Assembly: GCA_027314515.1 (NCBI GenBank)
Contig: DAHVAR010000123.1
Location: forward strand, 1-64,000
Length of the DNA stretch: 64,000 nt
DNA from: Actinomycetota bacterium
GTDB taxonomy: Bacteria; Actinomycetota; Actinomycetes; Streptosporangiales; Streptosporangiaceae
Reading direction: 5' to 3'
Under the pieces are notes generated by a model. The model did not search any database, had not been told where the DNA came from, and worked only from the letters and a program-made list of their open reading frames with translations. Position 1 is the first letter of the stretch, and every line of letters begins with the position of its first letter. Position numbers and translations under genes: made by a program. Shown here piece after piece: positions 4,198 to 35,821 of the stretch.

Positions 4198-4872
4198 ATG
4201 GAGAGGCTAGCCGCAGCGGCCGCCGAGGCGCTGGCAGGGGCACCGGCCGACGAGGTCATCGCATGGGCGACCCGGACGTTCGGCCGCCGGATCTGCATCA
4301 CCTCGTCGATGACCGATGCCGTCCTGGTCAACCTGGTGTCGAGGCACCTCCCCGGCGTCGACGTGCTCTTCCTCGACACCGGCTATCACTTCCCCGAGAC
4401 GGTAGGCACCAGGGATGCCGTCTCGGCCATGTATCCGGTCAACGTGATCAACGTGATGCCGCCAACCACGGTCGAAGAGCAGGACGCCGAGCTAGGCCCC
4501 CGGCTGTACAGCCGGAACCCGGACCTGTGCTGCTACCTCCGCAAGGTGGTGCCACTGGAGGAGGCGCTCGGCCCGTACGACGCCTGGTTCACCGGCGTGC
4601 GCCGGGAGGAGACCGAGGCCCGGACAGACACCAGGGTCGTCCAGTGGGACGCGCGACGCGAGATGATCAAGGTCAATCCGATCGTCGAATGGACCCAGCA
4701 GCAGGTCGATGACTACATTGCCGCCAACAACATCCTGGTGAATCCGCTGGTTTATGACGGCTACCCGTCGATCGGGTGCCGTACCTGCACCTCCCGGGTG
4801 GCTGGCGGGGCGGACCCGCGCAGCGGGCGGTGGGCGGGCACCGGCAAGACCGAGTGCGGCATCCACACCTAG
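4198..4872 (+). CDS. cysH: adenylyl-sulfate / phosphoadenylyl-sulfate reductase
   Basis: Reduces activated sulfate (APS or PAPS) to sulfite in assimilatory sulfur metabolism. 224 residues. The nucleotide-binding fold is visible as SSMTDAVL (36-43) and FLDTGYHFPET (58-68). C111/C112 and C194/C197 make up the CC…CxxC set that binds a [4Fe-4S] cluster, which in this family points to APS as substrate. The catalytic cysteine is C220 in the C-terminal ECGIHT. The ATG has an excellent ribosome site (AGGAGGAG). No other sulfur genes are in the window. The next gene starts 10 bases downstream, but its product has no sulfur role. Confidence 0.93.
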   Translation: MERLAAAAAEALAGAPADEVIAWATRTFGRRICITSSMTDAVLVNLVSRHLPGVDVLFLDTGYHFPETVGTRDAVSAMYPVNVINVMPPTTVEEQDAELGPRLYSRNPDLCCYLRKVVPLEEALGPYDAWFTGVRREETEARTDTRVVQWDARREMIKVNPIVEWTQQQVDDYIAANNILVNPLVYDGYPSIGCRTCTSRVAGGADPRSGRWAGTGKTECGIHT

Positions 4873-4882
4873 GCCGGCAGCA

Positions 4883-6580
4883 GTGACGCACTCCCGGCGG
4901 CACGTCACGCATCAGGTACTGAACCAGGTACCTCCGCTCGCTGGATATGACGTGGCCGAGGACCCGGCATTGCTGAGCGCCGTGCGCCGCGAAGGCGCGG
5001 GCTGGGCCGAGACCGAACTGCACGAGCTTGGCGCGCTGGCCGGCACGGCGGCCACGCAGGAGCACGCCCGGCTGGCGAACGCCAGCAAGCCGGTGCTGCG
5101 CACCCATGACTCTCGCGGTTACCGGGTAGACGAGGTTGACTTCCACCCGTCCTGGCATCACCTCATGACCACCGCGGTCGGCCACGGCCTGCACGCCGCT
5201 CCCTGGGCCGACAGCAGGCCCGCTGCGCACGTGGCCAGGGCTGCCAAGTTCATGGTCTGGGCCCAGGCCGAGGCCGGTCATGGCTGCCCGATCTCCATGA
5301 CCTATGCCTGCGTGCCCGCGCTGCGGCACAGCCCGGAGCTAGCGGCCCGCTACGAGCCCCTGCTGACCTCGGCCAGCTACGACCCTGGCCTGCGGCCGCC
5401 TGAGGGCAAGGCCGGGCTGCTCGCCGGCATGGCCATGACGGAAAAGCAGGGCGGCTCGGACCTCCGCGCTAACACCACGACGGCGGCGCCAGCAGGCGAC
5501 GGCAGCTACCTGCTGACCGGACACAAGTGGTTCTGCTCGGCGCCGATGTGCGACTTGTTCCTGGTGCTGGCGCAGGCTCCGGAGGGCCTGACCTGCTTCC
5601 TGCTGCCGCGGGTGCTACCTGACGGCAGCCGGAACGCGATGTACCTCCAGCGGCTCAAGGACAAGCTCGGCAACTCCTCCAACGCATCCAGCGAAGTCGA
5701 GTATGACCAGGCCGTAGCCTGGCCGGTCGGCGAGCCCGGCCGGGGGGTGCAGACCATCATCAGCATGGTCACCGCCACGAGACTGGACTGCGTGCTCGGC
5801 AGCGCGGCGGCCATCCGCCAGGCCACCGTCATCGCGGCCAGCTACGCCGGCCTGCGCGAATCCTTCGGCGCCCCGCTGCTTGACCACCCGGCCATGGCCG
5901 GGGTGATCGCGGATCTGACCGTCGAGTCGGAATCCGCCACGACGCTGGCCATCCGGCTGGCCGGAGCTGCCGACCGGGCGGCCGCTGGCGACGCCGCCGA
6001 GGCGGCGCTGCTCCGCGTTGCCCTGCCAGCCGCCAAGTACTGGATCTGCAAGCGCACTCCGATGATCACCGCCGAAGCGCTCGAGTGCCTTGGCGGGAAC
6101 GGCTATGTCGAGGATTACTCACCGCTGCCCCGGCTGCTTCGCGATTCGCCGCTCAACTCCATCTGGGAAGGGTCCGGCAACGTCGCGGCCCTGGACGTGC
6201 TCCGCGCACTGACCTGGGCGCCGGCCTGCGCCGAAGCGCTGCTCGCCGAGATCGACCTGGCACGCGGCGACGAGCGGGTCATGGCGGCCGCAGCTAGCCT
6301 GCGCGCGCTCCTGAGGCGGGCACAGGGCCCGGACGGCGAGCGGCATGCACGCCGCCTTGCCGGGCAGATTGCCATCACGCTCCAGGCATCGCTGCTGGCC
6401 CGGCATGCGCCGGCCGCGATCTGCGACGCTTTCGGCAGCACCCGCCTCGACGGCCGCGCGGCCGGCGATGCAGGCACCTCGCACGGCCTCGGTGCAGGGC
6501 CCGGCATTCCGTTCGGCAGCCTGCCGGACGGGCTCGACCTCGCGGCCATCGTGGCGCGCGCTGCTGTTACCAGCGGGTAA
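4883..6580 (+). CDS. acyl-CoA dehydrogenase, AidB-like
   Basis: Flavin-dependent acyl-CoA dehydrogenase family enzyme of 565 residues, the AidB/isovaleryl-like size. Visible motifs include the substrate/FAD region AMTEKQGGSDLRANTT (about residues 180-195) and GHKWFCSAPMCDLFLVLAQ. Near the C-terminal part are CLGGNGYVEDYSPLPRLLRD and SIWEGSGNVAALDVLRAL, both strongly AidB-like. I chose the GTG at 4883 because it follows the cysH stop by 10 bases; a longer frame open from 4754 runs inside cysH. AidB proteins are linked to protection from alkylation, but the natural substrate here is unknown. glgX begins nine bases downstream. Confidence 0.88.
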   Translation: MTHSRRHVTHQVLNQVPPLAGYDVAEDPALLSAVRREGAGWAETELHELGALAGTAATQEHARLANASKPVLRTHDSRGYRVDEVDFHPSWHHLMTTAVGHGLHAAPWADSRPAAHVARAAKFMVWAQAEAGHGCPISMTYACVPALRHSPELAARYEPLLTSASYDPGLRPPEGKAGLLAGMAMTEKQGGSDLRANTTTAAPAGDGSYLLTGHKWFCSAPMCDLFLVLAQAPEGLTCFLLPRVLPDGSRNAMYLQRLKDKLGNSSNASSEVEYDQAVAWPVGEPGRGVQTIISMVTATRLDCVLGSAAAIRQATVIAASYAGLRESFGAPLLDHPAMAGVIADLTVESESATTLAIRLAGAADRAAAGDAAEAALLRVALPAAKYWICKRTPMITAEALECLGGNGYVEDYSPLPRLLRDSPLNSIWEGSGNVAALDVLRALTWAPACAEALLAEIDLARGDERVMAAAASLRALLRRAQGPDGERHARRLAGQIAITLQASLLARHAPAAICDAFGSTRLDGRAAGDAGTSHGLGAGPGIPFGSLPDGLDLAAIVARAAVTSG

Positions 6581-22365: not shown

Positions 22366-23930
22366 TGGTCGCTCCGGTCGCTCCGGTCGCTCCGGTCGCC
22401 TGGCGCCGGCCCGCCCCGGTCATCTCCGTGCTGGCTGTGCCACCACTGCCGGAACGTCTGCGGCGGCGGGACCGGCGCGTCTCGCGCGCGCGTCCACGCG
22501 GCCAGCGGCGGCGGCAGCGCGGTGATCTTCCCGCGCCGGCCGAGCAGGCGGCCTGACCGGCTGGCCGACTGCGCGGCGGCGAGCCGTCCCGGGTCGGCGA
22601 GCAGGTAGGATGCCGCCGCCATCGTGATGGCCTCGGCGGAGGGCAGCCGGTGCGTCCGCCTGGCCTCCTCGACGTGCCGCGCACGCAGGTGCACCAGCAA
22701 CTCCGGAATATTGATCTTCACCGGGCAGACGTCATAGCAGGCCCCGCACAACGACGACGCGTACGGCAGCGAGGCGTTGTCCTCGATGCCGGTCAGCTGC
22801 GGCGACAGCACCGCTCCGATCGGACCCGGATAGACCGAGCCATACGCATGACCACCGGTCCGCTCGTATACCGGGCACACGTTGAGGCACGCGGAGCACC
22901 GGATGCAGTGCAGCGCCGCGCGCCCCACCGGGTCGGCGAGCGCGGCGGTCCGCCCGTTGTCAAGCAGCACCAGGTGCACGGACTGCGGGCCGTCGCCCGG
23001 CGTCACCCCGGTCCACATCGAGGTATACGGGTTCATCCGCTCGCCGGTCGATGACCTTGGCAGCAACTGCAGGAACACGCCGAGGTCAGCCCAGCTCGGG
23101 ATCACTTTCTCGATGCCCATGACAGTGATGAGGGTCTGCGGGAGGGTCACGCACATGCGCCCGTTCCCCTCCGACTCGACCACGCACAACGTGCCAGTCT
23201 CGGCGACGCCGAAGTTCGCGCCGCTGATGCCGACGGTGGCGGACAGGAACTTGCGCCGCAGGTGCTGCCTGGCCGCCTCAGCCAGCGCGGCCGGATCGTC
23301 GGTCAGGTCAGGGCTGACGTCGCCCATCTCCCGCAGGAAGATGTCGCGGATCTCCGACCGGTTGCGGTGGATGGCCGGGACCAGGATGTGCGACGGGCGG
23401 TCATGCCCGAGCTGCACGATCAGCTCGGCCAGGTCCGTCTCGTAGGCCGCGATGCCGGCCGCGGCCAGCGCGTCGTTCAGCCCGATCTCGTCGGTGGCCA
23501 GCGACTTGACCTTGACCACCTCGGTGGCGCCAGCCGCCTGCACCAGCGCGGTCACGATGTTGCCGGCCTCGATGGCGTCCCTGGCCCAGTGCACCGTGCC
23601 GCCGCGAGCGGTGACCGCGACCTCAAGCTGCCCGAGGTAGCGGTCGAGGTCGGCCATCGTGGCCGCCTTGATCGCCTCGCCCGCGGCGCGCAGCTCCTCC
23701 CAATCTGGCAATTCGCTGACCACGGCGGCCCGCTTGGCCCGGATCGTGGTCGTGGCCTTGCTGAGGTTGCGCCGCAGCTGGGCGTCCGCGAGTGCCCGGC
23801 GGGCGGCCACCGGGAACGGGTCGGCTGCGCGCAGATGACCGACGCCGCGCGGCGCGTGCGGTGGCTCGGAGGGCGACTGCCGGGAGCCCGGCCGGCCCGG
23901 CCGGCCCGGCAGGCCGAGGAAGGTCGTCAC
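22362..23930 (-). CDS. lutB: lactate utilisation iron-sulfur protein B
   Basis: LUD domain plus ferredoxin-like protein of 522 residues, the central electron-transfer subunit of LutABC. The N-terminal LUD domain includes FGVAETGTLCVVESEGNGRM. Two 4Fe-4S sets follow, CIRCSACLNVCPVYERTGG and CGACYDVCPVKINIPELL. The GTG at 23930 was chosen because it overlaps the lutA stop (GTGA); a longer frame continues into lutA and is spurious. The C-terminus ends in RSDRSDRSDQ, encoded by a 9-base repeat. Confidence 0.93.
   Translation of the reverse strand: MTTFLGLPGRPGRPGSRQSPSEPPHAPRGVGHLRAADPFPVAARRALADAQLRRNLSKATTTIRAKRAAVVSELPDWEELRAAGEAIKAATMADLDRYLGQLEVAVTARGGTVHWARDAIEAGNIVTALVQAAGATEVVKVKSLATDEIGLNDALAAAGIAAYETDLAELIVQLGHDRPSHILVPAIHRNRSEIRDIFLREMGDVSPDLTDDPAALAEAARQHLRRKFLSATVGISGANFGVAETGTLCVVESEGNGRMCVTLPQTLITVMGIEKVIPSWADLGVFLQLLPRSSTGERMNPYTSMWTGVTPGDGPQSVHLVLLDNGRTAALADPVGRAALHCIRCSACLNVCPVYERTGGHAYGSVYPGPIGAVLSPQLTGIEDNASLPYASSLCGACYDVCPVKINIPELLVHLRARHVEEARRTHRLPSAEAITMAAASYLLADPGRLAAAQSASRSGRLLGRRGKITALPPPLAAWTRARDAPVPPPQTFRQWWHSQHGDDRGGPAPGDRSDRSDRSDQ
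22367..22400. repeat. 9-base tandem repeat at the lutB 3' end
   Basis: Three exact copies of GGTCGCTCC (22367-22375, 22376-22384, 22385-22393) and a partial fourth, encoding the Arg-Ser-Asp repeats at the lutB C-terminus. Confidence 0.85.
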
Positions 23931-24694
23931 CGGCTCACCGCCGCAGGCGCTCCCTGGCCGGCCCCGGCCGTCGAGGCGAGGATCTCGGCCAGGTGCACCG
24001 TCTTGACCCCGGCGCGCAGCCGGGACAGCCCGCCGCCGATGTGCATCAGGCACGACGAGTCGCCGGCCGTGCAGACCTCCGCCCGGGTGGCCAGCACGCT
24101 GCGCATCTTGTCGGCCAGCATCGCGGTCGAGGTGTCGGCGTTCTTGACCGCGAACGTGCCGCCGAATCCGCAGCAAACGTCGGCATCAGGCAGTGGCACC
24201 AGGTCGATCCCGGATACCCGGCGCAGCAACCGCAGCGGCCGGTCGCCGACTGCCAGCAGCCGGAGTGAGTGACACGTCGGGTGATAGGTGACCCGGTGCG
24301 GGTAGTGGGCGCCGACGTCCTCGACGCCGAGCACGTCGGTGAGCAGCTGGGACAGCTCGTACGTGCGCGCCGCGACTGCCTCAGCCCGCCGCGCCAGCTC
24401 TTCATCATCGTGCCGCCGCGCCACCATCGCGTGCTGGTGCCCGATCGAGCCGACGCACGAGCCCGACGGAGCCACGATGACCTCGTACGGTTCGAAGGTG
24501 TCGACGTACCGCCGGATCAGCGGCAACGCCGCCCGCTGGTACCCCGTGTTAATGTGCATCTGCCCGCAGCACGTCTGCTCCGCCGGGAACACCACCTCGT
24601 GCCCGAGCCGCTCCAGCAGGGTCACGGTGGCTCGCGGGACATCCGGGAACAGGGTGTCGGCGAGGCAGGTGGCAAACAGCGCGATCCGCGTCAC
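23927..24694 (-). CDS. lutA: lactate utilisation protein A (CCG-domain oxidoreductase)
   Basis: Iron-sulfur oxidoreductase of 255 residues with two cysteine-rich CCG domains, TCCGQMHINTGYQ and DVCCGFGGTFAVKN, plus PSGSCVG and DSSCLMHIGGG, as in LutA/GlcF. First gene of lutABC-GNAT-cupin. I chose the GTG at 24694 because it gives the family N-terminus (VTRIALFATCLADTLFP). A -10-like TATCGT ends seven bases before it, suggesting a leaderless transcript. In-frame starts at 24715 and 24730 are possible. Confidence 0.92.
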   Translation of the reverse strand: MTRIALFATCLADTLFPDVPRATVTLLERLGHEVVFPAEQTCCGQMHINTGYQRAALPLIRRYVDTFEPYEVIVAPSGSCVGSIGHQHAMVARRHDDEELARRAEAVAARTYELSQLLTDVLGVEDVGAHYPHRVTYHPTCHSLRLLAVGDRPLRLLRRVSGIDLVPLPDADVCCGFGGTFAVKNADTSTAMLADKMRSVLATRAEVCTAGDSSCLMHIGGGLSRLRAGVKTVHLAEILASTAGAGQGAPAAVSR

Positions 24695-24777
24695 ATCCCC
24701 CACGATAGAGTGCATCGCCGACAGGCTCACGGCGACTGCCGAAGGCTGGCCACACCGAGCTACCGGAGGCAGCAGTC

Positions 24778-26015
24778 CTGACCTTCTGCGTCCTGACGAC
24801 CGCCGCGGCGGCTGCCTGGCTGTACCTGCTCGGGCTGCACGGTGGTTACTGGCGCACCAGCCACCGGCTGCCGCCAGCGGCGCCGGGCCGGCTTCCGGCA
24901 GTCACCGCGGTCATTCCGGCCCGGAACGAGGCTGACATACTGCCCGGCTGCCTGCCGAGCCTGCTCTGCCAGGACTACTCAGGTCCGCTGACGGTCATCG
25001 TGGTCGACGATGACAGCAGCGACGGCACCGCGAAGATCGCGGCCGAACTCGGCGACATCGCCGACGGCGCGGACCTGACCGTCGTAGCCGGCCGCCCGAC
25101 GCCGGACGGCTGGGCGGGGAAAGTCTGGGCATGTCCGAAGGCGTCCGGGCGGCCGGCCCGGCTGCCGAGTACCTCCTGTTCACCGACGCCGATATCAGCT
25201 TCGCGCCAGGCACGCTCGCCCGGCTGGCGCGTGCGGCGGTGGCCGGCGACTTCGCCATGGTGTCGCAGATGGCGCTGCTGCGCGCCGTTAGCCGCTGGGA
25301 GAAGCTGCTGATCCCGGCCTTCGTCTATTTCTTCGCCCAGCTTTACCCGTTCCGGCGGGTCAGCACGCCACGGTCCCGGACTGCGGCGGCCGCCGGCGGC
25401 TGCATGCTGGTGCGGGCCGATGCGCTGGCAGCGGCGGGCGGCCTGGCCCGGATCAGCGGCGCGCGGATCGACGATGTCGCGCTCGGCACGCTGCTCAAGC
25501 GGGCCGGCGGCCGCTGCTGGCTGGGCCTGACCACCGAGGTCGTCAGCACGCGGCCGTACCGTCGGCTAGCCGATATCTGGCACATGGTCGCGCGCAGCGC
25601 CTACACCCAGTTGCATCACTCGCTCACCGCCACTGCCGTTGCCGTGCTCGGCCTGGCCTGGCTGTACCTGCTTCCGCCCGCCGCAACCGTCAGCGGGCTG
25701 ATCATGCTCGCAGCCGGCGGGCCGGCCGCCGGCCACGGCACCGGCCACAGCGCCGGCTGGCTGCCGCTGTGGCTGGCCTGCGCGGGCCTGGCCGGGTGGC
25801 TGATGATGTCCCTGACCTACCTGCCCATGGTGCGCTTCTACCGGCTGTCCCCCGCCCGCGCCGCGAGCCTCCCGCTGATCGCCGCGCTGTACGCGGCCAT
25901 GACCGCGGACTCGGCCCTGCGGCACCTGCGCTGCCGCGGCGGCGAATGGAAGGGCCGCCTCTCCGCCCCGGATGAACCTGGCGGCCCGGATGACACCATG
26001 CCGGGCAGTGCGTAA
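24778..26015 (+). pseudogene. HpnB-like hopanoid glycosyltransferase, frameshifted
   Basis: Family 2 glycosyltransferase resembling hopene-associated HpnB. The N-terminal part (24778-25130) reads …TAVIPARNEADILPG…, VIVVDDDSSDGTAKIA, PDGWAGKVWA. The rest (25131-26015) reads MSEGVRAAG, EYLLFTDADISFAPG, AAAAGGCMLVRADAL, RIDDVALGTLLKRAGGRCWL and several C-terminal membrane helices. The two parts are in different frames: one base is missing in the Ala codon before ATG 25131. Repaired, it would be 412 residues, near HpnB size. No ATG, GTG or TTG fits the first part; a CTG at 24778 with GGAGG eight bases upstream is the likely start. It is either a sequencing error, a real lesion or, less likely, programmed shifting. 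Confidence 0.78.
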
Positions 26016-31891: not shown

Positions 31892-33385
31892 GTGCGGATA
31901 CTCTACGTCGACGTCGACACGCTCCGTGCCGATCACACGGGGCCATACGGCTACCCGCGTCGTATCACCCCGAACCTTGACCGGCTAGCGGCCGACAGCG
32001 TCGTCTTCGCGCGCTGCTACTGCTCGGACTCCCCATGCGCACCGTCGCGTGCGGCGTGGACGAGCGGTCAGTTCGGCATCACGACCGGCGCCATCGCCAA
32101 TTTCGGCCCGGCGAGCGAGATCAGGATGTTCGACCGGACACGTCACGCCCCGTTCTTCGGCGGGCATCTTTATCGGCATGGAATTCACACCACATCGATT
32201 TCCTGCTTCCCTGAGCGACACCTCGCTTACTGGTACGTCGGGAACTTCCGAGAATGGATCAAGCCGTCTTTGTCCAACGGGGACGATGAGGATGGACAGA
32301 CGGTCACCGACGCCGCCATCGAGTGGCTCCGCCGGCGTGGTCGTGCAGAGGACTGGCTTCTCCAGGTCCACTTCTGGGACCCGCATACTCCGTACCTGGA
32401 GTCCGGCCATTGGGTGAATGTCGTTGCCGAAAGCGGCCCCGCGCCGGACTGGCCCGACGAGGAAACCATCGCCGCACACGCGGATGTCTATGGTCCGCAC
32501 ACCGCGCTCGACCTCTACGAGGGCGATGGGAGCTGGTCTGTGCCTGCGGCGACTTCTCCGAACCCGGTCACGATGCCCGATGCGATCACTAGCCGTTCCG
32601 ACTTCGTGCGGCTCGTGAACGGCTACGACGGAGCTATCGCGTACTTCGACGACAACCTGGGGCGGCTGCTCCATACCCTGAGCGAACTCGGAATCCTCAA
32701 CGAGACTGCGGTCATCGTGACGTCAGACCACGGCGAGTGCCTCGGGGAGAACGGCTGTTACGGCGACCATCCGATGGCCAACGAAGCTTCCCACCACGTG
32801 CCCCTGATAATCCGATGGCCTGGCACTACCGAGAAGATAGCGCCTTCTCTCCGTCGGGTCGAAGGACTGGTGTATCAGCTCGACCTGTGCCCCACCGTGT
32901 GCGACATGCTCGACATCGACATCCCGCCGGGCTGGGAAGGGCTGTCGTTTGCCGCCGCGCTGCAAGGCGAGCATTTCACCGGCCGACCCTATCTGATGCT
33001 GAGCCACGGTGCGTATACCTACCAGCGGTCGGTACGAACTCCGGAGCATCTCTACCTCCGTACCCTGCACCCCGGAATGTGGCGGATCGAGCGAGAGCAG
33101 TTGTATGCGATCGAGGACGATCCGCATATGACCCGCGACATCTTGCAGGAGGACAACGGTGCGGCCGCTCACCTCGCCGGCCTCCTCGAAGAGTGGCGCC
33201 GCACGTGCGCCACGATGCTCGGCGCTGCACCGGATCCGATGGAGGCTCGCCGCTACGAGAGTCCCGCAGAAGCATTTTCAGTGGCTAACTACCTCCAGCG
33301 CTTGGCGAAGACCGGCCGAAGTCACCTCGCGGCGGATCTCTCGCGCCGTCTAGCCGAGCCATGGGTGCTCTCACAGCGTTGGTAG
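31892..33385 (+). CDS. type I sulfatase family hydrolase
   Basis: Alkaline-phosphatase-fold sulfatase of 497 residues. The formylglycine motif is intact: C49-A-P-S-R53 within SDSPCAPSRAAWTSG. Metal-binding residues are D7 and D9 (YVDVDTLRADHTG) near the start and SDHGECLGE later. The N-terminus reads directly into the first strand, with no signal peptide, so it is probably cytoplasmic. GTG at 31892 is chosen; GTG 31883 is an alternative. Its codon use is a little less GC-biased than its neighbours. It needs a formylglycine-generating enzyme from elsewhere. Substrate unknown. Confidence 0.88.
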   Translation: MRILYVDVDTLRADHTGPYGYPRRITPNLDRLAADSVVFARCYCSDSPCAPSRAAWTSGQFGITTGAIANFGPASEIRMFDRTRHAPFFGGHLYRHGIHTTSISCFPERHLAYWYVGNFREWIKPSLSNGDDEDGQTVTDAAIEWLRRRGRAEDWLLQVHFWDPHTPYLESGHWVNVVAESGPAPDWPDEETIAAHADVYGPHTALDLYEGDGSWSVPAATSPNPVTMPDAITSRSDFVRLVNGYDGAIAYFDDNLGRLLHTLSELGILNETAVIVTSDHGECLGENGCYGDHPMANEASHHVPLIIRWPGTTEKIAPSLRRVEGLVYQLDLCPTVCDMLDIDIPPGWEGLSFAAALQGEHFTGRPYLMLSHGAYTYQRSVRTPEHLYLRTLHPGMWRIEREQLYAIEDDPHMTRDILQEDNGAAAHLAGLLEEWRRTCATMLGAAPDPMEARRYESPAEAFSVANYLQRLAKTGRSHLAADLSRRLAEPWVLSQRW

Positions 33386-33512
33386 CGTCGCGGGCCGACC
33401 CGGCGTTGCCGCACTGCGCAACGGCCGGCGAAAACGGCAGGGCCTGGTGGCTCGGAGGACGAAACCAACGTCCGAAGCTGCCGCCAGGGGCTGTGGCGCC
33501 CGGCGCGCGCCG

Positions 33513-34145
33513 CTAACCGGTCTTGCGCACCCGCCGGCTGGCCAGCTCGTCGGCCCCGGCTCCGGGCCCGTCGCCGGGCCGCTCCGCCGGCAGTTCGGCC
33601 AGCGTGCCTTCGACTTCCTGCCAGACCCGGCCGAGCGCGATCCCGAACACGCCCTGGCCGCCTTGCAGCAGGTCCACGACCTCGTCCGGGGAAGTGCACT
33701 CGTACACGCTGACGCCATCGCTCATCAGGGTGACCTCCGCCAGGTCGGCAGGGCCACGCTCGCGCAGGTGCGCTACCGCAGCCCGGATCTGCTGCAGTGA
33801 GATGCCCGTGTCGAGCAGGCGCTTTACTACCTTAAGGACGAGAATGTCACGGAAGCCGTACAAACGCTGCGAGCCCGAGCCGGCTGCGGCCCTGACACTC
33901 GGCTCGACCAGGCCGGTCCTGGCCCAGTAGTCAAGCTGCCGGTAGCTAATGCCCGCGGCGTTGCACGCTGTCGGGCCCCGGTAGCCCACGTCTTCGGGCT
34001 GGGGGGCCGTCTCGTCACCGAAAAGCATCTCCTGCCGCCCGGCAGACTGCGGCACTGGTGTGTGCGGCACTGGTGTTTGCGGCACTGGTGTTTGCGGCAC
34101 TGCCCTATCGCTGCCAGACACTGTCGCCCCTTGCTGCCGCCGCAC
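33513..34145 (-). CDS. MerR-family regulator, Rv1830-like
   Basis: Transcription regulator of 210 residues. After a variable 45-residue N-terminus comes a MerR winged helix: ACNAAGISYRQLDYWARTGLV, then SQRLYGFRDILVLKVVKRLLDTGISLQQIR. The second half carries a VSVYECTSPDEVVDLLQGGQGVFGIA domain typical of this actinobacterial subfamily. The N-terminus has PVP[QH]T repeats encoded by a 15-base tandem repeat. The order garA-ftsR-nuclease-this gene matches Rv1827-Rv1830 of M. tuberculosis. Confidence 0.9.
   Translation of the reverse strand: MRRQQGATVSGSDRAVPQTPVPQTPVPHTPVPQSAGRQEMLFGDETAPQPEDVGYRGPTACNAAGISYRQLDYWARTGLVEPSVRAAAGSGSQRLYGFRDILVLKVVKRLLDTGISLQQIRAAVAHLRERGPADLAEVTLMSDGVSVYECTSPDEVVDLLQGGQGVFGIALGRVWQEVEGTLAELPAERPGDGPGAGADELASRRVRKTG
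34051..34104. repeat. 15-base tandem repeat at the merR 5' end
   Basis: Three 15-base units (34051-34065, 34066-34080, 34081-34095; one base differs) plus a partial fourth, encoding PVPQT/PVPHT near the N-terminus of the MerR-type regulator. Confidence 0.9.
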
Positions 34146-34279
34146 CCGGGACGCTTCTTGCCCGGGTACACCTCTCGCACGGTAGGCCGGTCAGCGTAGC
34201 CACGTCAACGATCTCGGACGGCGCGTCGCGGTCCCGGTTAGGCGGCACATGGACGGTCATAACACCCGCGACCGGCGGC

Positions 34280-34750
34280 TCAGGTAGACCGGCCAAAATC
34301 TTCGGGGGTGATGGAGTCCAGGAACTCCCGGAACTTCTCGACCTCGTCCTCTTGCTCATCGGGGATCGCCACCCCGGCCTCATCGAGGATCTCCTCGCGC
34401 ACGTAGATCGCCGCACCGGTGCGAAGTGCCAGCGCGATCGAGTCCGACGGGCGGGCGCTGACTTCCCGGCCGTTGGAGAAGATCAAGTCGGCGAAGAAGA
34501 TACCGTCCCTGAGCGCAGTGATATTGACCGTGGTCAGCCGGATCTCCAGTGCCTCGAGCATGTCCTTCATCAGGTCGTGGGTCAGCGGCCGCTGCGGCAC
34601 CATGCCCTGCTGGGCAAACGCGATAGCCGTAGCCTCGTTCGGCCCGATCCAGATCGGCAGGTAGCGCTCGCCATCGGTCTCCTTCAGCAGGACGATCGGG
34701 TTGTTCGTGGCCATCTCCACCCGGACGCCGACAACCTCCATCTGCCTCAC
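34280..34750 (-). CDS. bifunctional nuclease family protein (DUF151)
   Basis: 156-residue protein of the bifunctional nuclease (BFN/DUF151) family, Rv1829-like. Conserved features are the start MEVVGVRVE, LPIWIGPNEATAIAFA, RPLTHDLM and RPSDSIALALRTGAAIYV, all characteristic. Plant homologues have DNase and RNase activity; the bacterial role is unsettled. It lies between two MerR-type regulators in a conserved cluster. Confidence 0.93.
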   Translation of the reverse strand: MRQMEVVGVRVEMATNNPIVLLKETDGERYLPIWIGPNEATAIAFAQQGMVPQRPLTHDLMKDMLEALEIRLTTVNITALRDGIFFADLIFSNGREVSARPSDSIALALRTGAAIYVREEILDEAGVAIPDEQEDEVEKFREFLDSITPEDFGRST

Positions 34751-34951
34751 GGCGGCTCCGTCCCTGTCCGCGCCTGCGCGCTGCGGTTACTAGCAGGTCT
34801 GCCTACAGGCATTCCCCTTGCGCCTGCGGGCACTCCCTTTGTCAAAGTACACCCGCAATCGGGACACGCCAGCCTGTGGCCTCTGCCAGGCACGATGGCG
34901 CGCCGGCCGGCACGATGGCAGGCCGGCGGGGGCAGGCAGCAACGGCGGCCG

Positions 34952-35821
34952 TCATGCGCTGGCTCCCTGGATACCGCGTGCTCGCTGGCCGTCAAGGTCC
35001 CGCCGCTGGCCGCCCGGCGGTCCCGCCGCAGCCCGCCCGGACTCACCCGGGCCGCCCGCCCCCGGCCCGCCAGTCGCCAGTCCGCCAGTTGCCAGCCCGG
35101 CAGCTGCCAGCCCGGCCTCCGCCAGCGCTCCGTCGACCAGCGCCCCATGCAGCCGGATGACCAGGTCTGCCAGTTCGCCCGCAGTCTGGGCGGCCAGCTC
35201 CCGCGCGCCAGCTGCCCGCTGTCGCTGGATCGGCGCGACCAGGCTCTCGATCATCGTCGTCTCTCGCTCAGCGGCCGCCCGGACGGCCCTCAGGTGCCGT
35301 GCCTCCACTCCGTAGGCAGTCAGCGCCACGGCGGTCCGCGCCACTACCAGGGCCTCGGGGCCGTACTGCCGGCCGACGCGCCGCAGCAGCCCGAAGGCTT
35401 CCAGCTCGGTCAGCAGTGCGTCGGTCAGGCCAGCGGCTTCCACGAGCTCACGCCGGCTCAGCAGCTCCTCCGGCCGGGCCGACGGCCCGTCCGGCTCGCC
35501 AGGCGAGCGCTGCCAGCCGCGGTCGGCTGACCGCGACCCGGCCACCGGGCTACCGGTGACCGGCACCTCGACCCTGGCCAGCCGCTCCTTGATGACCCGC
35601 AGCGGCAGGTAATGATCACGCTGAGCCGTCAGAATGTAGCGGAGACGATCCAGGTCGGCGGCGCTGAACCGGCGGTAGCCGCTCGGCGACCGCGCCGGGG
35701 TGAGCAGCCCCTCCGTCTCCAGGAATCTGATCTTGGACACCGAGACGTCAGGGAAATCAGTCCGCAGCTGGGCAAGGACCTCGCTGATGCCAAGGTATGC
35801 GCGAGCAGGCTGTGCGCTCAT
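34952..35821 (-). CDS. ftsR: MerR-family regulator FtsR-like
   Basis: 289-residue MerR regulator of the FtsR/Rv1828 group, which in corynebacteria activates ftsZ. N-terminal winged helix: YLGISEVLAQLRTDFPDVSV, then IRFLETEGLLTPARSPSGYRRF and RLRYILTAQRDHYLPLRVIKERL. The C-terminal half includes the effector-like LSRRELVEAAGLTDALLTEL and a Gly/Ala-rich low-complexity tail (GLATGGLATGG). Its start shares a base with the garA stop, so both are translated together. The symbol is by homology and gene order. Confidence 0.88.
   Translation of the reverse strand: MSAQPARAYLGISEVLAQLRTDFPDVSVSKIRFLETEGLLTPARSPSGYRRFSAADLDRLRYILTAQRDHYLPLRVIKERLARVEVPVTGSPVAGSRSADRGWQRSPGEPDGPSARPEELLSRRELVEAAGLTDALLTELEAFGLLRRVGRQYGPEALVVARTAVALTAYGVEARHLRAVRAAAERETTMIESLVAPIQRQRAAGARELAAQTAGELADLVIRLHGALVDGALAEAGLAAAGLATGGLATGGPGAGGPGESGRAAAGPPGGQRRDLDGQRARGIQGASA

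Follow-up and report, generated by a model that had tools for sequence, protein, structure and literature searches.

The 64,000-nucleotide stretch of DNA analyzed here (the window; contig DAHVAR010000123.1) carries on its + strand, at 24775-26015, an hpnB gene that lies in two parts of differing frame and lacks a canonical start codon, which raises the question of where its translation would begin and whether the gene still makes a protein. In the reading we favor, to which we give a probability of roughly 0.7, the hpnB start was lost once in this lineage and became ATC or GTC, a GGAGG was gained in front of it, the window copy would start at a GTC, HpnB output would be low and IF3-dependent, and the break in frame would be a private lesion. 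Of the two halves of the problem, the start is of more interest, being a switch conserved in the clade and not peculiar to the window sequence; the lesion on its own is ordinary.

Identity and context of hpnB

The host is an uncultured Streptosporangiaceae-type actinobacterium with a genome (G000) of 280 contigs and 5.86 Mb that is 97.9% complete. The N-terminal part of hpnB (24775-25128, frame 1) comprises a hydrophobic N-terminus and the first half of a family 2 glycosyltransferase domain and, translated from 24778, ends at GKVWA; the C-terminal part (25131-26015, frame 3) runs from an ATG at 25131 to a TAA stop at 26013-26015 and holds the rest of the catalytic domain and hydrophobic stretches. 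Pfam assigned glycosyltransferase family 2 and family 21 domains to these parts. The NCBIfam profile TIGR03469 matched the N-terminal part over profile positions 3-124 (128 bits) and the C-terminal part over 125-384 (302.6 bits), so that the two join end to end, and the initial annotation was right to call an HpnB-like glycosyltransferase. Each part scores below the curated cut-off of 379.25 bits because the protein is split; all six intact HpnB proteins of the clade that were tested exceeded it (448.8-461.9 bits). A search of G000 found no second hpnB copy.

Eight of the nine genomes of the genus contain hpnB, and no match was found in the ninth (G004, 72% complete). Squalene-hopene cyclase (TIGR01507) was above its cut-off in all nine and HpnH in six, which means that the genus has a hopanoid pathway; in G000, shc and hpnH both lie on contig C262, apart from the contig with hpnB. 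According to one study, no function has been established for HpnB itself, even in groups that have been studied, and 13 of 48 hpnH-bearing Alphaproteobacteria have no hpnB (PMC12583986).

Upstream of hpnB in the window is a divergent open reading frame at 23927-24730. By eye, we take it to be LutA-like. The divergent region between the two genes (24731-24774) is very short, and the hpnB promoter must sit within or beside the start of the LutA-like gene.

The one-base break

The initial annotation had placed a single-base lesion between 25128 and 25131 and proposed that related genomes be compared there, and this comparison bore the lesion out. At 25129, the window has exactly one base fewer than its closest relative (G006), whose frame is unbroken and whose hpnB is ~92% identical at the DNA level around the break. 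The break is missing in all seven hpnB-bearing relatives within the genus and in a nested copy from a neighboring genus (G027), so it is private to G000. In an alignment with G006 that covers ~24 kb (93-95% identity), no other frame-breaking indel fell well within a predicted gene: four touch predicted genes near their ends only (12027, 18060, 18093, and 24726), and the remainder are intergenic. When substitutions in both parts of hpnB were polarized and summed, the G000 branch had 18 nonsynonymous and 16 synonymous changes and the G006 branch 16 and 20, respectively, with a further 11 nonsynonymous and 10 synonymous changes that could not be polarized. The G000 branch thus showed no excess of amino-acid change over the G006 branch (18 versus 16), and old decay of the window copy was rejected.

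With the relatives all unbroken and signs of older decay absent, the break is probably either a recent mutation or an error of assembly or sequencing. We would put the odds of an error at about even, and an error would be compatible with our preferred account of the start: G000 is a draft genome, the relatives carry a two-base run at the break site, and relaxed selection on its hpnB is not in evidence, but the assembly is not generally error-prone, since 25129 is the only gene-interior frame break in the ~24 kb compared with G006. Were the lesion real, G000 would be left without a working HpnB.

The start of hpnB across the clade

Upstream of hpnB in the window, an in-frame TAG (24706-24708, + strand) closes the frame, and the interval from there to the conserved coding sequence contains no ATG, GTG, or TTG; the first such codon in frame 1 after this TAG comes only at codon 75 past 24775. 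The absence of a usual start, which had been noted initially, therefore stands. It had also been suggested that an upstream ATG might emerge in a corrected sequence, which does not apply here, as the lesion is ~350 bases downstream and the unbroken relatives are also startless.

We aligned the N-termini of 128 loci with an HMM and MAFFT and read the codon in the start column, counting identical sequences once; left out of this alignment were a C-terminal part (L117), weak paralogs (L019-L025 and L028-L030), and one locus without a start (L105). Outside the genus and G027, the start column was ATG or GTG (RTG) in 89 of 97 loci (67 GTG and 22 ATG), and the other eight comprised six with an RTG displaced by -2 to +3 codons and two gaps (L039 and L048), which we counted as non-RTG. 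Within the clade formed by the eight genus copies and G027, the column held ATC in six, GTC in three (together, RTC), and RTG in none of nine. Of 20 additional family loci, retrieved from some of the places for which no locus had been available, the 19 that could be scored all had GTG or ATG, although some of these 19 are contigs already among the 97 (e.g., L166/L037 and L171/L042); the remaining one (L162) was without a start. Because the clade represents one evolutionary event, its counts are not independent of one another. The missing RTG is more than chance, recurring in all nine members. In the sequences compared, the missing canonical start is real and lineage-wide, and a switch of the hpnB start from RTG to RTC is strongly supported. 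A search of the open-license PMC literature found no hpnB with a non-canonical start.

A Shine-Dalgarno-like GGAGG lies at 24765-24769 (+ strand), eight bases before a CTG at 24778, as first described, and five bases before the GTC at 24775. It is identical in the sister genome G006, and the Shine-Dalgarno site, spacer, and first codons do not differ between the two genomes, just downstream of a 13-base indel. A GGAGG occurs within 20 nt before the start column in seven of nine clade members (all except G005 and G027) versus none of the 89 RTG-start outgroup loci, and the mean anti-Shine-Dalgarno pairing energy is -9.6 kcal/mol in the clade versus -5.0 kcal/mol in those loci, a difference whose p-value could not count as independent evidence, given that the species are related. 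All seven GGAGG-bearing copies have an in-frame ATC or GTC 4-5 nt after the motif; for background, an ATC or GTC follows GGAGG at this distance at 99 of 1447 sites (6.8%) in 769 kb of G000, frame ignored. In G007 and G008, GGAGG+5 falls on a GTC that precedes the aligned column by two codons, so that spacing and alignment disagree there; both also have a GTG three codons ahead of the column, only 2 nt past the GGAGG.

These observations make the GTC at 24775-24777 (+ strand), which aligns with the outgroup ATG or GTG, the most likely start in the window, given the clade-wide column, the spacing from GGAGG, the layout of infC in the same genus, and the precedent of Streptomyces sigR and infC (see below). 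The initial annotation had proposed the CTG at 24778-24780. This start is possible, with initiation in the relatives at a weak codon ~7-8 nt past GGAGG and the preceding codon belonging to the 5' UTR, but it is not the best candidate and we consider it rather unlikely. The CTG stands 8 nt after GGAGG, the spacing from GAGG to the start is ~8 in some outgroup loci (e.g., L133), and NCBI table 11 lists CTG, but not GTC, among its start codons. Against it, the protein alignment sets the outgroup start one codon earlier, the clade codon in the CTG column varies (CTG, ATC, ATT, GTT, or GTC) whereas the preceding column is always ATC or GTC, and the +7/+8 codon in the seven GGAGG-bearing copies is inconsistent (CTG, CTG, ATC, ATC, GTC, and, in G007 and G008, GCC). 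A GTC start, moreover, is experimentally documented in Streptomyces sigR.

We regard as improbable a start that lies elsewhere and differs among species, whether at an upstream GTG, TTG, or ATG, at a different weak codon, or by leaderless initiation, with the ATC or GTC then an internal isoleucine or valine. ATC and GTC are the commonest isoleucine and valine codons of hpnB, so the column alone would look alike for an internal residue, and seven of nine copies have an in-frame RTG or TTG somewhere upstream: the GTG just mentioned in G007 and G008, and codons at least 14 positions before the column in G006, G003, G001, G002, and G027. A non-canonical start is consequently forced only in G000 and G005, in which in-frame stops (TAG 23 codons upstream and TAA four codons before the start-column ATC, respectively) rule out a canonical upstream start. 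Set against a start elsewhere are these two genomes, the lack of one conserved place for the upstream candidates, and the GGAGG directly ahead of the RTC.

The loss of RTG has a single origin on a tree of 31 chosen HpnB rows (G000 represented by its C-terminal part), in which all nine RTC copies cluster together with support of 100/98 and with G027 inside the cluster. The clade's hpnB is under purifying selection, with dN/dS of 0.23-0.34 over the gene and 0.16-0.44 over the first 30 codons in seven pairs by simple pairwise counting. That hpnB is a decaying pseudogene, its start lost first and its frame broken later in G000, is accordingly very improbable: two apparent defects do fall in one gene, and many hopanoid producers dispense with HpnB in the account already cited (PMC12583986), but the relatives' frames are all open and selected, including the first 30 codons, the Shine-Dalgarno site was strengthened rather than lost, and the G000 branch carries no surplus of amino-acid changes. 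A programmed frameshift, or an enzyme split into two proteins at 25129, for which the ATG at 25131 overlapping the break and opening the second frame might be invoked, was rejected as barely credible, the shift occurring in no relative, including the ~92% identical G006.

A candidate IF3-gated start and its known counterparts

Initiation at the RTC codon is, in our view, a strong inference from comparison across the clade. We propose that the canonical hpnB start was lost once in the genus and G027, the same codon becoming ATC or GTC, and that a strong GGAGG arose just upstream in most members. The strong Shine-Dalgarno site would retain the 30S subunit at hpnB while the initiator anticodon mispairs with the third base of ATC or GTC; such starts would be repressed by IF3, as is shown for sigR in Streptomyces (PMC5472188), and, in experiments in vitro described in a second source, IF3 excludes weak third-base pairs with initiator tRNA (PMC10158994). 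By analogy, IF3 probably holds down HpnB production, and output would be low, rising as IF3 activity falls or IF3 becomes limiting.

The initiator tRNA itself appears ordinary: exact anticodon-arm pattern matches with anticodon CAU were present in eight of nine genus genomes, and a free-anticodon pattern search of the nine revealed no other initiator anticodon (G007 gave only a one-mismatch chance site). An altered initiator tRNA was thus rejected, the pattern search having returned CAU only. When 769 kb of the 5.86 Mb of G000 were scanned for unusual starts, 10 of 453 scored genes were flagged, one of which was hpnB. Judged by eye, the other nine are presumably one selenocysteine formate dehydrogenase, three gene fragments, and otherwise low-scoring noise, so this 453-gene scan gave no other clear case of altered initiation genome-wide. 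The scan is insensitive, and additional RTC starts may exist in G000; infC (contig C11) was in the scanned part yet went unflagged because of a GTG shortly upstream. Two loci from G000 are recorded here in their own right. On contig C9, a formate dehydrogenase-like frame (~33184-35724; L214) continues across an in-frame TGA, by eye probably selenocysteine. On contig C6, the conserved part of a GntR-like regulator (4308-4973; L182) begins right after a TAA and has no canonical start for 32 codons, which may reflect a fragment, a frameshift, or another unusual start.

Conserved non-canonical starts have been characterized in few bacterial genes, as the Streptomyces study states (PMC5472188). Gene finders assume ATG, GTG, or TTG, and genes like hpnB of this clade would therefore be mis-started or truncated. 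The gene offers a natural before/after case, with RTG and a weak Shine-Dalgarno site outside the clade and RTC and a strong one inside, and this comparison makes it testable how start codon and ribosome binding trade off and how far IF3 reaches. More tentatively, and by analogy with infC and sigR, a membrane-lipid decoration gene may have been put under their gate through the exchange of RTG for RTC and a stronger Shine-Dalgarno site, such that hopanoid glycosylation would answer to initiation fidelity or stress. In that case hpnB would be a metabolic gene drawn into the IF3 gate, with outgroups that show how a weak start combined with a strong RBS evolves; we hold this to be possible but somewhat less than evenly probable.

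As an HpnB (TIGR03469), the protein is recognizable from the profile match, the intact clade members above the cut-off, and the end-to-end fit of the window parts; it differs in the splitting of the window copy, in its non-canonical start, and in the location of shc and hpnH on a different contig (C262). Like the IF3-gated genes infC and sigR, hpnB has a lineage-conserved codon (RTC in nine of nine) behind an extensive RBS (GGAGG in seven of nine). Non-canonical infC starts are ATT in Escherichia coli and ATC in Streptomyces, as summarized in PMC5472188. In the present genus, all seven infC copies found read GGAGG-TCAC-ATC, with a TAA directly ahead of the Shine-Dalgarno site in G005 and G008. 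GGAGG followed by 4 nt and ATC is common to infC of the genus and hpnB of G003, and hpnB of G001 has the same arrangement with 5 nt. The two genes differ in that the IF3 acting on infC is the gene's own product, a feedback loop, whereas hpnB would be a downstream target. The weak infC start also has a known range that extends from E. coli to Streptomyces, whereas the one in hpnB is restricted to a single clade.

The closest counterpart in codon is Streptomyces sigR, in which GTC is the proven start, with an extensive RBS and repression by IF3 (Feeney et al. 2017, PMC5472188); the same source lists GTC in 32 of 34 Streptomyces sigR genes and GTT in two, and in what it reports of other actinobacterial genera there is no evidence of a GTC sigR start. 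A similar arrangement is kept in sigR of the genus studied here, for which all three copies read (L248 in G002, L249 in G001, and L251 in G003, the motif being found in only three of the eight loci given) contain GTG-GGT-nnn-GTC. Both sigR and hpnB have GTC in place of RTG, a strong RBS just upstream, genus-wide conservation, and an actinobacterial host. They differ in that sigR encodes a regulator and hpnB a membrane glycosyltransferase, that ATC is the majority codon in the hpnB clade, and that the start and the effect of IF3 are proven by mutation for sigR and inferred for hpnB.
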